NCBI GenBank assembly: GCA_000309945.1
Contig: CM001633.1
Coordinates: 1,448,723-1,512,722, forward strand
Reading direction: 5' to 3'
DNA from: Leptolyngbyaceae cyanobacterium JSC-12
GTDB taxonomy: Bacteria > Cyanobacteriota > Cyanobacteriia > Leptolyngbyales > Leptolyngbyaceae
Length of the DNA: 64,000 bases
Part shown: in pieces, positions 21,860 through 24,911 of the stretch
Layout: every line of letters starts with the position of its first letter
Position numbering within the stretch: the stretch's first letter is position 1
Translations under genes and position numbers: made by a program
Notes under the pieces: generated by a model
The model's database searches: none
Seen by the model: only the letters and a program-made list of their open reading frames with translations
Told to the model about the DNA's origin: nothing

Positions 21860-22354
21860 CTATTTCCGAGCCGGAACCTCAACCATTGCTGTATCCTGAA
21901 TTACTTTGCCTTGATACAGCAGGTCATCATGCCCGTTGGTGTTGAGAGTGACAGTGATTTTGTTGAGTCCTGATTTGAGACTGGAATTGGGGAGGTGATA
22001 CCAGTTGCCGTACAGGCGAGCAACCTTTTGACCATTGATGTAGAGATGGGCGTGCCCTTCATTTGAACGATTACTTTTAGTATTGACTCGTTCTGGAGCG
22101 AAAGCAAAGTTCGCAACCCTAAGCTCTAAGTTCCAGCCATTCATCGGGTCAGGATGCACCACCAACTTCACCGTTGGCACAGGTTGTCCTTGTGGAATTT
22201 CGACTGCTCCATGTCGATGAGTTGCGCCGGAGTGGCTACCATCCCCCGAATGGCGTGGAGTCATGCCCGGCTTATTTTCATGGGCTGAAAGTGGCACAGA
22301 GTTGACTGTGAGAATACTAGCAATCGCAACCACTCCAAACAAAACCGATTTCAT
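21860..22354 (-). CDS. Secreted His-rich protein translationally coupled to petJ
   Basis: This is a 164-residue exported protein. The ATG at 22352-22354 shares one base with the petJ stop (TAATG) and is preceded by GGAAGG, so the start [15 protein letters not shown] is preferred over the frame start at 22366. A signal peptide covers about residues 1-24 (ending LSA). The mature N-terminus is rich in histidine (HENKPGMTPRHSGDGSHSG, then HRHG), with further His in EGHAHLYINGQK and NGHDDLLYQ, suggesting metal binding. The remainder looks like a beta-sandwich domain. Coupling to cytochrome c6 in a copper-switch locus suggests a periplasmic or lumenal metal-handling role; this is inference. No named family was recognised. 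Confidence 0.8.
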   Translation of the reverse strand: MKSVLFGVVAIASILTVNSVPLSAHENKPGMTPRHSGDGSHSGATHRHGAVEIPQGQPVPTVKLVVHPDPMNGWNLELRVANFAFAPERVNTKSNRSNEGHAHLYINGQKVARLYGNWYHLPNSSLKSGLNKITVTLNTNGHDDLLYQGKVIQDTAMVEVPARK

Positions 22355-22704
22355 TAAGCCTTCCACCCCTTTGCCGACTGATCTAATACGTATTCAGCCA
22401 CAGCTTGAATTTGGTCATCACTAAGACGATTTTTGAAAGCTGGCATCGCGCTCTTACCATTCGTCACCTGGTTGACAATGGCATCCAAGGTATCCATGCT
22501 GTACTGATGCAATGCATCGGCTTTCAAGCTTTTGCTGGCATTAATCACGTTGTTGCCGTTAGCATGGCAGGCGGCGCAGTTGGCGCTAAATACCTTCGCT
22601 CCGTTTGCCAAGACAGCGGCTGAAGCCTCCGCAAATGCCGGACGAGTCATCAATAGCATCAGGCAAGCGATCGCAATAATCAGTTTGACGAAAACCTTTC
22701 TCAC
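22354..22704 (-). CDS. petJ: Cytochrome c6
   Basis: A 116-residue precursor of the lumenal heme protein that carries electrons from cytochrome b6f to photosystem I (and to oxidase) when plastocyanin is unavailable. Residues 1-25 are a signal peptide ending AFA. The heme site is C43-A-A-C46-H47, and the axial methionine is M87 in the segment [16 protein letters not shown]. Length matches the family. The start is GTG at 22702-22704, preceded by GGAGGA. The coupled His-rich gene follows directly and a BlaI-type repressor plus M56 protease are divergent, as in the copper-controlled PetRP system. Confidence 0.95.
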
Positions 22705-22918
22705 AAGTCCTCCAGATTCGGCACACTACAATCGGCAGTTTCCTAATGTTGCCCCTCTCAAAAAAAAGTCGCAAAAACCCTGCTGGGGCAATAACTAACG
22801 CATGCCCCAAATCAGGGATAAATGCTTTCGAGAAGCAAACTGTAGATGTTAACTATCATGCGGTGAGTTCTGAGTCATCGTCAAAAGACAGGCTGTCAAA
22901 CTTAGCTTGCAATTTTCG

Positions 22919-22956
22919 ATTTCGCTATATCCTAATGATTTCGCTATATCCTAATG
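22919..22956. promoter_or_regulatory. 19-bp perfect tandem repeat upstream of the BlaI-type regulator
   Basis: The unit ATTTCGCTATATCCTAATG occurs twice without a gap, at 22919-22937 and 22938-22956, ending 26 bases before the regulator ATG in the 278-base petJ/regulator divergent region. Placement makes it a candidate operator pair or duplicated promoter element. It has no clear BlaI-type TACA/TGTA dyad, so function is unproven. Confidence 0.6.
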
Positions 22957-22982
22957 ACATATCTGCTTACGTCGTTCTCTCT

Positions 22983-23402
22983 ATGACTGCTTTACCAAAC
23001 TATCGACCCAAAAACCTGTCGCTCGGGCCACTTGAGCGGGAAATCTTGCACATTGTTTGGGAATTGGGAACTGTCAGCGTTAAAGATGTTCACGATCGCA
23101 TCCTGGAAGATCCTGATCGTGAACTGGCATATACCTCTGTAACAACTGTGTTGAATCGCCTCACAAATAAGGGTTGGCTAGCGTGTGACAGGCAGGGACG
23201 TAGTTTTGCCTGGCGATCGCTAATCTCGCAGGAACAGGCAAAAGCACTGGAAGCTTACGAGCAGTTGAATCAGTTTTTGGCGGTCAGTAATCCTGATGTT
23301 GTTGCAGCATTTGCGGATAGCCTGGATCAAACCAGTGTGGAACAGCTTGAAGCAATCGCTGCCAAACTCCGCGCCGTTCGCAAAGCCAGGGAGGCACACT
23401 AA
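22983..23402 (+). CDS. petR: BlaI/CopY-family repressor, PetR-like
   Basis: The 139-residue protein begins MTALPNYRPKNLSLGPLERE and has the BlaI/MecI winged helix (ILHIVWELGTVSVKDVHDRI, then LAYTSVTTVLNRLTNKGWL) followed by a helical dimerisation tail. The ATG at 22983 is chosen because the family starts there; the frame runs open 79 codons upstream. Its TAA overlaps the protease ATG by one base (TAATG). In Synechocystis, PetR of this family represses petJ and activates petE, and is removed by the PetP protease when copper is present. Adjacency to petJ supports that role here, though orthology is inferred from context. Confidence 0.85.
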   Translation: MTALPNYRPKNLSLGPLEREILHIVWELGTVSVKDVHDRILEDPDRELAYTSVTTVLNRLTNKGWLACDRQGRSFAWRSLISQEQAKALEAYEQLNQFLAVSNPDVVAAFADSLDQTSVEQLEAIAAKLRAVRKAREAH

Positions 23403-24244
23403 TGCATTTTCTGATGATGTTGATTGGCTTAGGACTAGCGTGGGGTGTGCGTTCTTTTGCCACTGCTGCAACGGGTAACTTAACTAAACGCTGGCAACAA
23501 ACATTAGGCTTATTTCTGTTTTCGCCTCTACTGTTGCTGATGACGGCGCTTGCCATCCTTTGCATGGGCCCATCTGGGCAAATGCTGGGGCACTGGGAAG
23601 GCTGGTTAGGCTACGATCTGGCATTCTGGTTTCTCGCATGGGCGATCGCATCTGGCATTAAGCTAGCCTGGGAAGGACATCAGACCGTTCAGCGACTTCG
23701 CCAAAATCCTGTGATCGAGATCAATGGCAACGTAGCCTACTTGCTCGACACCTCCGAGCTTTATAGCGCTCAAGTGGGGTTCTGGCAGCCAGAATTGGTC
23801 GTGAGTCAGGGATTGCTGACGACACTGGATGATGAACATCTGGAAGCCGTGCTGGTTCATGAACAAGCCCATGCCCACTACCATGACACTTTCTGGTTTT
23901 TCTGGCTGGGCTGGCTGCGTCGCCTCACGTGTTGGCTGCCCCACACCGAAGCCCTCTGGCAAGATTTGTTGATGCTGCGCGAACTCCGAGCTGATCAACG
24001 TGCGGTTAGCCAGGTTGATCCTTTGGTGTTGGCAGAATCTTTGCTGATGGTAGTGAGTGCGCCATTGATGCAACCAGAAGTTTGTGCCACCTTCAGTTGG
24101 ACAGTTTCCCGCGATCGCCTGACTGAACGCATCGACTCTCTCCTTGCAGATTCTGCTCCAGCTATGCCAACCAACCTCTGGTCAATGAGTTGGTTATTGC
24201 TCGTGTTGCTGCCGCTGATGACAATTCCGTTGCACGTTGGATGA
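23402..24244 (+). CDS. petP: M56-family membrane metalloprotease, PetP-like
   Basis: The 280-residue membrane protein has N-terminal helices at about 1-20, 33-55 and 72-92. A cytoplasmic zinc protease domain carries HEQAH at 153-157 and the third ligand context ELRAD at 194-198. A C-terminal helix covers about 257-277. This is a BlaR1/MecR1 protease without a beta-lactam sensor domain. In Synechocystis the PetP protease degrades PetR in response to copper. Translational coupling to the repressor (TAATG overlap) and position beside petJ fit. The ATG at 23402 is fixed by this overlap. Confidence 0.86.
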   Translation: MHFLMMLIGLGLAWGVRSFATAATGNLTKRWQQTLGLFLFSPLLLLMTALAILCMGPSGQMLGHWEGWLGYDLAFWFLAWAIASGIKLAWEGHQTVQRLRQNPVIEINGNVAYLLDTSELYSAQVGFWQPELVVSQGLLTTLDDEHLEAVLVHEQAHAHYHDTFWFFWLGWLRRLTCWLPHTEALWQDLLMLRELRADQRAVSQVDPLVLAESLLMVVSAPLMQPEVCATFSWTVSRDRLTERIDSLLADSAPAMPTNLWSMSWLLLVLLPLMTIPLHVG

Positions 24245-24245
24245 A

Positions 24246-24911
24246 ATGTCAACCAAAACGTTAGGACTCAGCGATCACCTTTATGATTACTTGCTCTCAG
24301 TCTCTTTGCGGGAGCCAGATGTATTGCGAGAACTGCGGCAGGAAACTGCCAACCATCCCATGAGCCAGATGCAAATTGCACCAGAACAAGGACAATTCAT
24401 GGCATTGTTGGTGCAGTTGATGGGCGCAAAGAAAACGTTGGAAATTGGAGTGTTTACTGGATACAGTTCCCTGGCAGTAGCACTAGCGCTTCCTCCCGAC
24501 GGCAGAATCATTGCCTGTGATGTCAGCGAAGAATATACTGCAATCGCTCGTCGCTATTGGGAAAAAGCTGGAGTTTCCCACAAGATCGATTTACGCATCG
24601 CTCCTGCTCTGGAAACGTTAGAGACTTTAATCACCTCTGGGCACTCTAATACCTTTGACTTTGCCTTCATTGATGCAGATAAAAGTCATTACAACGATTA
24701 CTACGAGCGATCGCTGCAACTCATCCGTCCTGGCGGATTAATTGCTATCGATAACGTTCTCTGGTCTGGTGATGTCGCTGACTTAGCTGTGACTGATAAT
24801 CGTACTGAAAAAATACGAGCCTTAAACCAAAAACTGCATCAAGATCAGCGCATTACTCTCAGTTTAGTTCCCATTGCAGACGGACTCACGCTTGCCATCA
24901 AACGATGTTAA
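24246..24911 (+). CDS. Class I SAM-dependent O-methyltransferase (CCoAOMT-like)
   Basis: The 221-residue protein matches the small cation-dependent O-methyltransferase family. It shows the SAM motif LEIGVFTGYSSLAVALALP at about 63-81, DADKS at about 140 with metal-binding Asp, and IAIDNVLWSGDVAD near 161-174. The ATG at 24246 follows the protease stop by one base, so it is probably the third gene of the petR-petP unit. Family members methylate catechol-like substrates; a substrate cannot be assigned. Whether the enzyme belongs to copper regulation or is merely co-transcribed is unknown. Confidence 0.88.
   Translation: MSTKTLGLSDHLYDYLLSVSLREPDVLRELRQETANHPMSQMQIAPEQGQFMALLVQLMGAKKTLEIGVFTGYSSLAVALALPPDGRIIACDVSEEYTAIARRYWEKAGVSHKIDLRIAPALETLETLITSGHSNTFDFAFIDADKSHYNDYYERSLQLIRPGGLIAIDNVLWSGDVADLAVTDNRTEKIRALNQKLHQDQRITLSLVPIADGLTLAIKRC

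Follow-up and report, generated by a model that had tools for sequence, protein, structure and literature searches.

Known copper switches and the JSC-12 locus

In Synechocystis PCC 6803, the BlaI/CopY-family regulator PetR and the adjacent membrane metalloprotease PetP are described as a switch between plastocyanin and cytochrome c6, with a regulon that encodes four proteins (PMC7896320); petE, petJ and slr0601-slr0602 are placed under PetRP in the available passages of PMC12382314. PetR acts as an activator at petJ and as a repressor at petE, a dual behaviour whose mechanism has been called unknown (PMC7896320). In this study, we analysed a locus of Leptolyngbyaceae cyanobacterium JSC-12 (contig CM001633.1) at which petJ, petR and petP are accompanied by a gene for a His-rich exported protein (HRP); the window is the whole 64,000-nt stretch that was analysed, and locus coordinates are positions within it. 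Judged by its upstream sequence, HRP looks like a petJ-type, copper-starvation target of PetR, and we lean towards a reading in which this exported protein is induced by PetR at low copper, binds copper via conserved histidines and feeds copper uptake.

JSC-12 resembles Synechocystis in that a BlaI/CopY regulator is paired with an adjacent membrane metalloprotease, in that petJ is divergent with a candidate PetR operator (the box, described below) in between, and in the presence of petE in the genome. It differs in that petJ stands in an operon with HRP, in that boxes are also found at the gene for a TonB-dependent receptor and at a DsbD_2 remnant, and in that no box was seen at petE.

Three other described proteins invite comparison. 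The available passages of PMC10957091 present ZepA (all3515 family) as a Zur-controlled, exported protein of zinc acquisition in Anabaena. HRP is like it in outline, being exported, His-bearing and under a candidate metal-starvation regulator, and one locus (L252) has a ZepA-family gene behind a perfect box; however, HRP does not match the ZepA model NF040463 and goes with another regulator. MbnP is a copper-binding protein family of methanobactin operons, and an MbnP gene is also found under a perfect box (L266), whereas HRP gave no MbnP match in the Pfam scan. Lastly, the TonB-dependent transporter IacT of Anabaena affects copper transport (PMC4284471, in the part available) and is reported to be induced by copper reduction (PMC8141849, likewise in part); TonB-dependent receptors are boxed in JSC-12 and elsewhere, the likeness to IacT being one of receptor class.

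A preliminary description of this DNA had grouped petJ, a BlaI-type regulator and a membrane protease as in the PetR/PetP system, and family matches and adjacency bear this out. The locus comprises five intact open reading frames, with petJ followed by HRP on the minus strand and petR, petP and an O-methyltransferase gene on the plus strand:

21860-22354, minus strand: HRP, His-rich exported protein of 164 aa (open reading frame; alignment of 56 relatives; dN/dS 0.09)
22352-22356, minus strand: TAATG overlap of the petJ stop and the HRP start, with GGAAGG just 5' of the HRP ATG (direct reading)
22354-22704, minus strand: petJ, cytochrome c6 (NCBIfam NF045930, 146.2 bits, cut-off 135)
22880-22900, plus strand: candidate PetR box, perfect motif match, oriented toward petJ-HRP
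22983-23402, plus strand: petR, BlaI/CopY-family regulator (PF03965, 109.4 bits)
23402-24244, plus strand: petP, membrane metalloprotease with HEQAH (PF05569, M56; PF01435, M48)
24246-24911, plus strand: O-methyltransferase, probable passenger (PF01596, 265 bits), beginning directly after the petP stop

The box in the window, GTCAAAAGACAGGCTGTCAAA, lies 176 bp from the petJ start and 82 bp from the petR start. The sole PF03965 match in the JSC-12 genome is petR itself; petP adjoins it, again with a TAATG overlap at the junction, has HEQAH as its HExxH motif, and scores 29.7 bits for M56 (just below the cut-off of 31) and 24.5 bits for M48 (above the cut-off of 20.3). The best choice of start for HRP is the ATG at 22354, and direct reading confirmed the TAATG overlap and GGAAGG by which HRP had been tied to petJ. 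Signal peptides were assigned by visual inspection. Relative to L014, a metagenome-assembled Leptolyngbyaceae genome that is a congener of JSC-12 and the closest named relative found, the ratio of nonsynonymous to synonymous substitution (dN/dS) is about 0.09 for HRP, 0.05 for petJ and 0.04 for petR, pointing to purifying selection; these ratios are rough, since dS approaches saturation for both HRP and petJ. By this measure HRP is a real gene. The genome holds one HRP gene, one close plastocyanin gene petE (C1:2525918-2526334) and petJ twice, the second petJ-like gene lying directly after petE (the pair spans C1:2525918-2526830). Additionally, a 19-bp tandem direct repeat, TTTCGCTATATCCTAATGA, is found just 5' of petR (22920-22957, starts at 22920 and 22939).

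A candidate PetR operator and its targets

The petR upstream regions of relatives have in common a 21-bp motif, GTCAAAAGACA-N4-GTCAAA. Allowing at most one mismatch, this box occurs in 98 of the 109 petR-bearing genomes (268 sites) versus 10 of the 277 genomes that lack petR (11 sites), while a reversed control pattern gave 17 and 24 sites, respectively; 11 petR-bearing genomes have no box at this threshold, among which G027, G171, G214 and G343 show sites at two mismatches. JSC-12 has three sites, namely the perfect one in the window, one located 161 bp before a TonB-dependent receptor gene, and one at a short DsbD_2 remnant. The latter (L195:1730-2215, minus strand; L233:8030-8515, minus strand) measures 161 aa against about 410 in relatives, and its box carries one mismatch.

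Two sites are present in each of four genomes of genus g24, and four of the eight regions could be labelled, with petJ in L275 and L277 and a GLTT-repeat gene in L274 and L276. The GLTT gene of L276, followed by a 138-aa gene, adjoins a 326-aa flavoprotein gene, a set which we take to resemble slr0600-slr0601-slr0602. The box thus appears to recover the published PetRP regulon and is for this reason read as the PetR operator, bound, as we infer, by PetR. It is very improbable that the box is instead the site of some other regulator, or that it reflects lineage and not regulation. Such a view could draw on the fact that the genome counts ignore kinship, and on the 11 boxes in 10 petR-lacking genomes, two of them in G032, which has no BlaI-family gene; yet 11 boxes in 277 genomes are no more than the 24 sites of the reversed control, the occurrence of the box at petJ, petE and the GLTT gene fits the published PetRP targets, and the five petR-lacking genomes with HRP have no box at HRP.

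The strongest link between HRP and PetR is this shared operator, which is found even at HRP genes that stand by themselves. Boxes were scored over 17 positions, upstream of HRP or of petJ where petJ leads the operon. A score of at least 15 was reached in 21 of 26 petR-bearing HRP genomes and in none of the five lacking petR, while none of 3100 windows drawn at random from these loci reached 14 (47 reached 13). Among the 21 boxed genomes, the box precedes petJ in five and HRP itself in 16, and 13 of these 16 have neither petJ nor petR in the fetched stretch.

The operator seems to exist in two forms. Upstream regions of petJ and petE were chosen without regard to the box, with one petJ per genome and with G358 outside the fetched loci. 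The exact core GACA-N4-GTC was found upstream of petJ in 19 of 25 petR-bearing genomes and 0 of 5 petR-lacking ones, and 17 of the 19 cores have six to seven of seven matches in the left half, GTCAAAA. Upstream of petE, the core was present in 18 of 26 regions (from 25 petR-bearing genomes), in 0 of 4 from petR-lacking genomes and in 120 of 3000 random windows; the petE of JSC-12 is one of the eight regions that lack it. Left-half matches number six or more in only two petE regions, both of them promoters shared with petJ. On these counts, petE promoters mostly bear the core alone, and petJ-type promoters the extended box.

With regard to orientation, the full box faces petJ in 37 of 38 cases, HRP in 11 of 11, TonB receptors in 8 of 8, DsbD_2 in 7 of 7, GLTT in 6 of 6, DsrE in 4 of 4, PepSY in 3 of 3 and ExbB in 2 of 3. 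It points away from petE in 7 of 7 (six of which are shared petJ/petE promoters), from petR in 9 of 12, and from TonB in 2 of 2, where the box is shared with ExbB or another gene. The HRP box has the petJ form and direction, and induction of HRP at copper shortage is therefore predicted. It lies 138-570 bp from HRP, distances that are rough since HRP starts in relatives were extrapolated, and usually 50-90 bp from petJ.

All 52 sites with at most one mismatch in the 31 HRP-bearing genomes were classified, giving petJ (23), HRP (9), DsrE-like (4), GLTT (3), TonB-dependent receptor (2), PepSY (2), DsbD_2 (2, one being the JSC-12 remnant, assigned by eye) and TonB/ExbB (1), with no recurring target for six. 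A second set covered 42 of 45 sites from 13 HRP-negative genomes, which were not randomly chosen; its targets were petJ or a shared petJ/petE promoter (12), petE (1), TonB-dependent receptor (6), DsbD_2 (6), GLTT (4), a small secreted protein that is also found beside DsbD_2 (2), ZepA-like (2) and, once each, MbnP, PepSY, TonB/ExbB, cytochrome oxidase subunit I and TPR, with none for four. Boxed membrane-protein families include DsbD_2 with Ferric_reduct and PepSY_TM.

Several of these targets deserve individual mention. The ZepA-family gene at L252:2280-3149 (plus strand) encodes an exported His-rich protein, unrelated to HRP, directly under a perfect box (NF040463, 247.9 bits, above cut-off), and the exported His-rich protein at L247:1214-2149 (minus strand), also directly under a perfect box, was assigned by similarity to L252 alone; some ZepA relatives may serve copper. 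The MbnP-family gene (L266:2312-2809, plus strand; PF20243, 71.5 bits) lies 93 bp 3' of its perfect box. A recurring gene faces away from the boxed DsbD_2 gene in L255, L263 and L264; in L255 it encodes an M28-family peptidase, with the box between the two genes.

A literature text search for the box motif found none among the matches listed, which does not show its absence, and the matches listed and passages available on PetR gave no link to TonB-dependent receptors or HRP; neither covered the original PetRP paper. The available part of PMC9252766 names petP, comB and petJ as neighbours of petR.

The HRP family and its neighbourhoods

HRP had been put forward as a new, local addition to the system, a claim that did not hold, since the family spans several phyla. 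A scan of one-per-species genomes yielded 73 loci, which by their record titles fall in cyanobacteria, Bacillaceae and kin, Acidobacteria/Bryobacterales, Nitrospinota, Anaerolineae, alphaproteobacteria, Pseudomonadales and a few other lineages. HRP genes are present in 31 of the 386 genomes of the cyanobacterial phylum sample (one as a contig-end fragment) and in 12 of the 42 genomes of the order, the remaining 30 being without one. In an alignment of 56 sequences, the residues that never vary are P, GHAHL, K, R, L, N and a further H; the invariant histidines are thus three in number, His101, His103 and His142, while conservation of His48, towards the N-terminus, is 90% or higher.

No Pfam or NCBIfam model matched HRP above cut-off. 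The Pfam scan returned three weak, unrelated matches only (best E 0.016) and none to the known copper-binding families (plastocyanin type, CopC, PCuAC, MbnP); DUF4399 gave no match to the window HRP at E <= 1 and 16.9 bits (cut-off 28) for the relative L054, and NF040463 matched neither the window HRP nor those of L014 and L036. On these searches HRP is a conserved, uncharacterised family. Its AlphaFold model is a confidently predicted beta-sandwich of generic Ig/FN3 type (mean predicted local distance difference test score 88.4, predicted template modelling score 0.77). A profile search of solved structures gave no match up to E 1, and Foldseek returned nothing at E <= 0.001 for the model. 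The fold was rejected as a clue to function, the best VIA-align hits (Z 8.5) being to unrelated Ig/FN3-like domains in a range common for that tool; as modelled, the Ig-like fold names no function for HRP. The HRP domain also occurs inside longer proteins (L048, L055-L060, L076, L081, L086), with an extra C-terminal part in Bryobacterales and an extra N-terminal part in Anaerolineae; YHYH-like genes flank it in L060.

The preliminary description had held that absence of HRP beside petJ in close relatives would speak against its proposal. Where HRP occurs within the order, this refutation did not come about, although most genomes there are without the gene: petJ is near HRP in 11 of the 12 HRP genomes and petR in 8 of the 12 (fetched flanks), and in the twelfth, G027, HRP directly faces petR. 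In the phylum sample, 13 of 31 genomes have HRP no more than about 6 kb from petJ or petR; they carry six family labels and show several gene orders, including petJ-petR-petP-HRP. As petR occurs in 109 of the 386 genomes, its co-occurrence with HRP in 26 gives a Fisher p of 2e-11, a value that, like the genome counts, ignores kinship among genomes. In none of the five HRP genomes that lack petR was any BlaI-family gene matched; petJ is near HRP in four of these, and petE lies about 3 kb from HRP in the fifth.

TAATG coupling was rejected as the key feature of the system, being lineage-specific: it was seen in the window and L014 only, while wider relatives have gaps between petJ and HRP, a TPR gene between them, or no petJ beside HRP. 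The O-methyltransferase, already suspected of being a passenger, was likewise rejected as a system member, for among the other petP loci with enough sequence 3' of petP it adjoins petP in 1 of 11, that of the congener L014 (a twelfth locus, L021, ends there).

These neighbourhoods bear on the possibility that HRP is a cytochrome c6 helper (in heme handling, maturation or docking) that is co-expressed with petJ and is no copper carrier. The TAATG overlap in the window, the frequent proximity of petJ in the order, the petJ-TPR-HRP trios of L008, L009 and L084 (whose TPR proteins belong to one cluster) and the four petR-lacking genomes in which HRP is near petJ all favour it, the last speaking for some link to cytochrome c6. 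We nevertheless consider such a role unlikely: 13 cyanobacterial HRP genes are boxed in fetched stretches that contain no petJ; members of the family in heterotroph lineages, Bacillaceae among them, argue against a function confined to cytochrome c6; and in L121 and L127 the partner of HRP is a DsbD_2 gene that follows it directly on the same strand. A DsbD_2 gene also lies 3' of HRP on the same strand in L027, with two open reading frames between.

Outside the cyanobacteria, a DUF2243-cluster membrane protein (named from the cluster representative) is encoded in all 22 Bacillales-type HRP loci (within L031-L069; two of the 22 carry other genus names), its gene lying directly 5' of HRP in L036, L053, L057 and L059, while DoxX-like and YHYH genes neighbour HRP in other lineages. 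In two Pseudomonadales relatives, L038 and L054, HRP is found among cobalamin and CobW-like genes. Such a setting would suit a protein that binds another metal, or that acts as a periplasmic or lumenal buffer or detoxifier of metal and has no part in copper uptake, as would conserved ligands consisting of histidine only, which could hold Zn(II) or Cu(II). Conversely, the HRP box accompanies PetR, whose system published work describes as copper-responsive, and an operator of the petJ type would imply induction at low, not high, copper, which makes this alternative rather improbable.

A possible role in copper acquisition

The reading we favour, that of HRP as a PetR-induced protein of copper uptake, may be set out as follows. 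At low copper, PetR would be spared from degradation by PetP, which leaves PetR undegraded under this condition in Synechocystis as published; it would then bind the extended box and turn on petJ-HRP, together with genes elsewhere in the genome that resemble a copper-import route. HRP would bind copper outside the cytoplasm through its conserved histidines and hand it on towards the interior, with cytochrome c6 meanwhile replacing plastocyanin. Copper binding is proposed because of the three invariant histidines and the company of the co-targets; import is suggested by the nature of these co-targets (TonB receptors, TonB/ExbB, DsbD_2 with Ferric_reduct, PepSY, MbnP and ZepA-family proteins), of which the TonB-dependent receptors and TonB/ExbB suggest the outer-membrane part.

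A number of observations weigh against this reading. No HRP box was found in the petR-bearing HRP genomes G185, G226 and G097 (which share one family label) or in G171, and that of G027 is weak (score 13). Across the 56 aligned sequences, the N-terminal His-rich stretch of HRP is variable except at one position, and Met or Cys residues are not conserved. The presence of HRP near petJ in four of the five genomes without petR or any BlaI-family gene fits a cytochrome-linked role too, and the non-cyanobacterial neighbours (DUF2243, DoxX-like, YHYH and cobalamin genes) name no copper role. At petE of JSC-12, the best match within 300 bp is 11 of 17 positions and there is no GACA-N4-GTC core within 200 bp; with no box to be recognised there, the claim for JSC-12 extends to the gene pair and the petJ arm but not to the petE arm.

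More tentatively, PetR could be a general cyanobacterial copper-starvation activator that runs a copper-import route, with HRP as the first noticed member of a multi-phylum family of copper carriers. As part of this still doubtful wider proposal, the route would consist of a TonB-dependent receptor, TonB/ExbB, exported binders (HRP, MbnP or ZepA-like) and DsbD_2/ferric-reductase and PepSY membrane proteins, and the form of the operator would set activation or repression, with the extended, oriented box at petJ-type genes and the core palindrome at petE. The two operator forms would offer a concrete, testable answer to how a single regulator can have opposite effects on petJ and petE. Few reports exist on the copper acquisition step in cyanobacteria, according to the available part of PMC8141849. 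If the box calls hold, the regulator of the plastocyanin/cytochrome c6 switch would also run copper acquisition in many cyanobacteria, and HRP would be one small protein on which this becomes testable.

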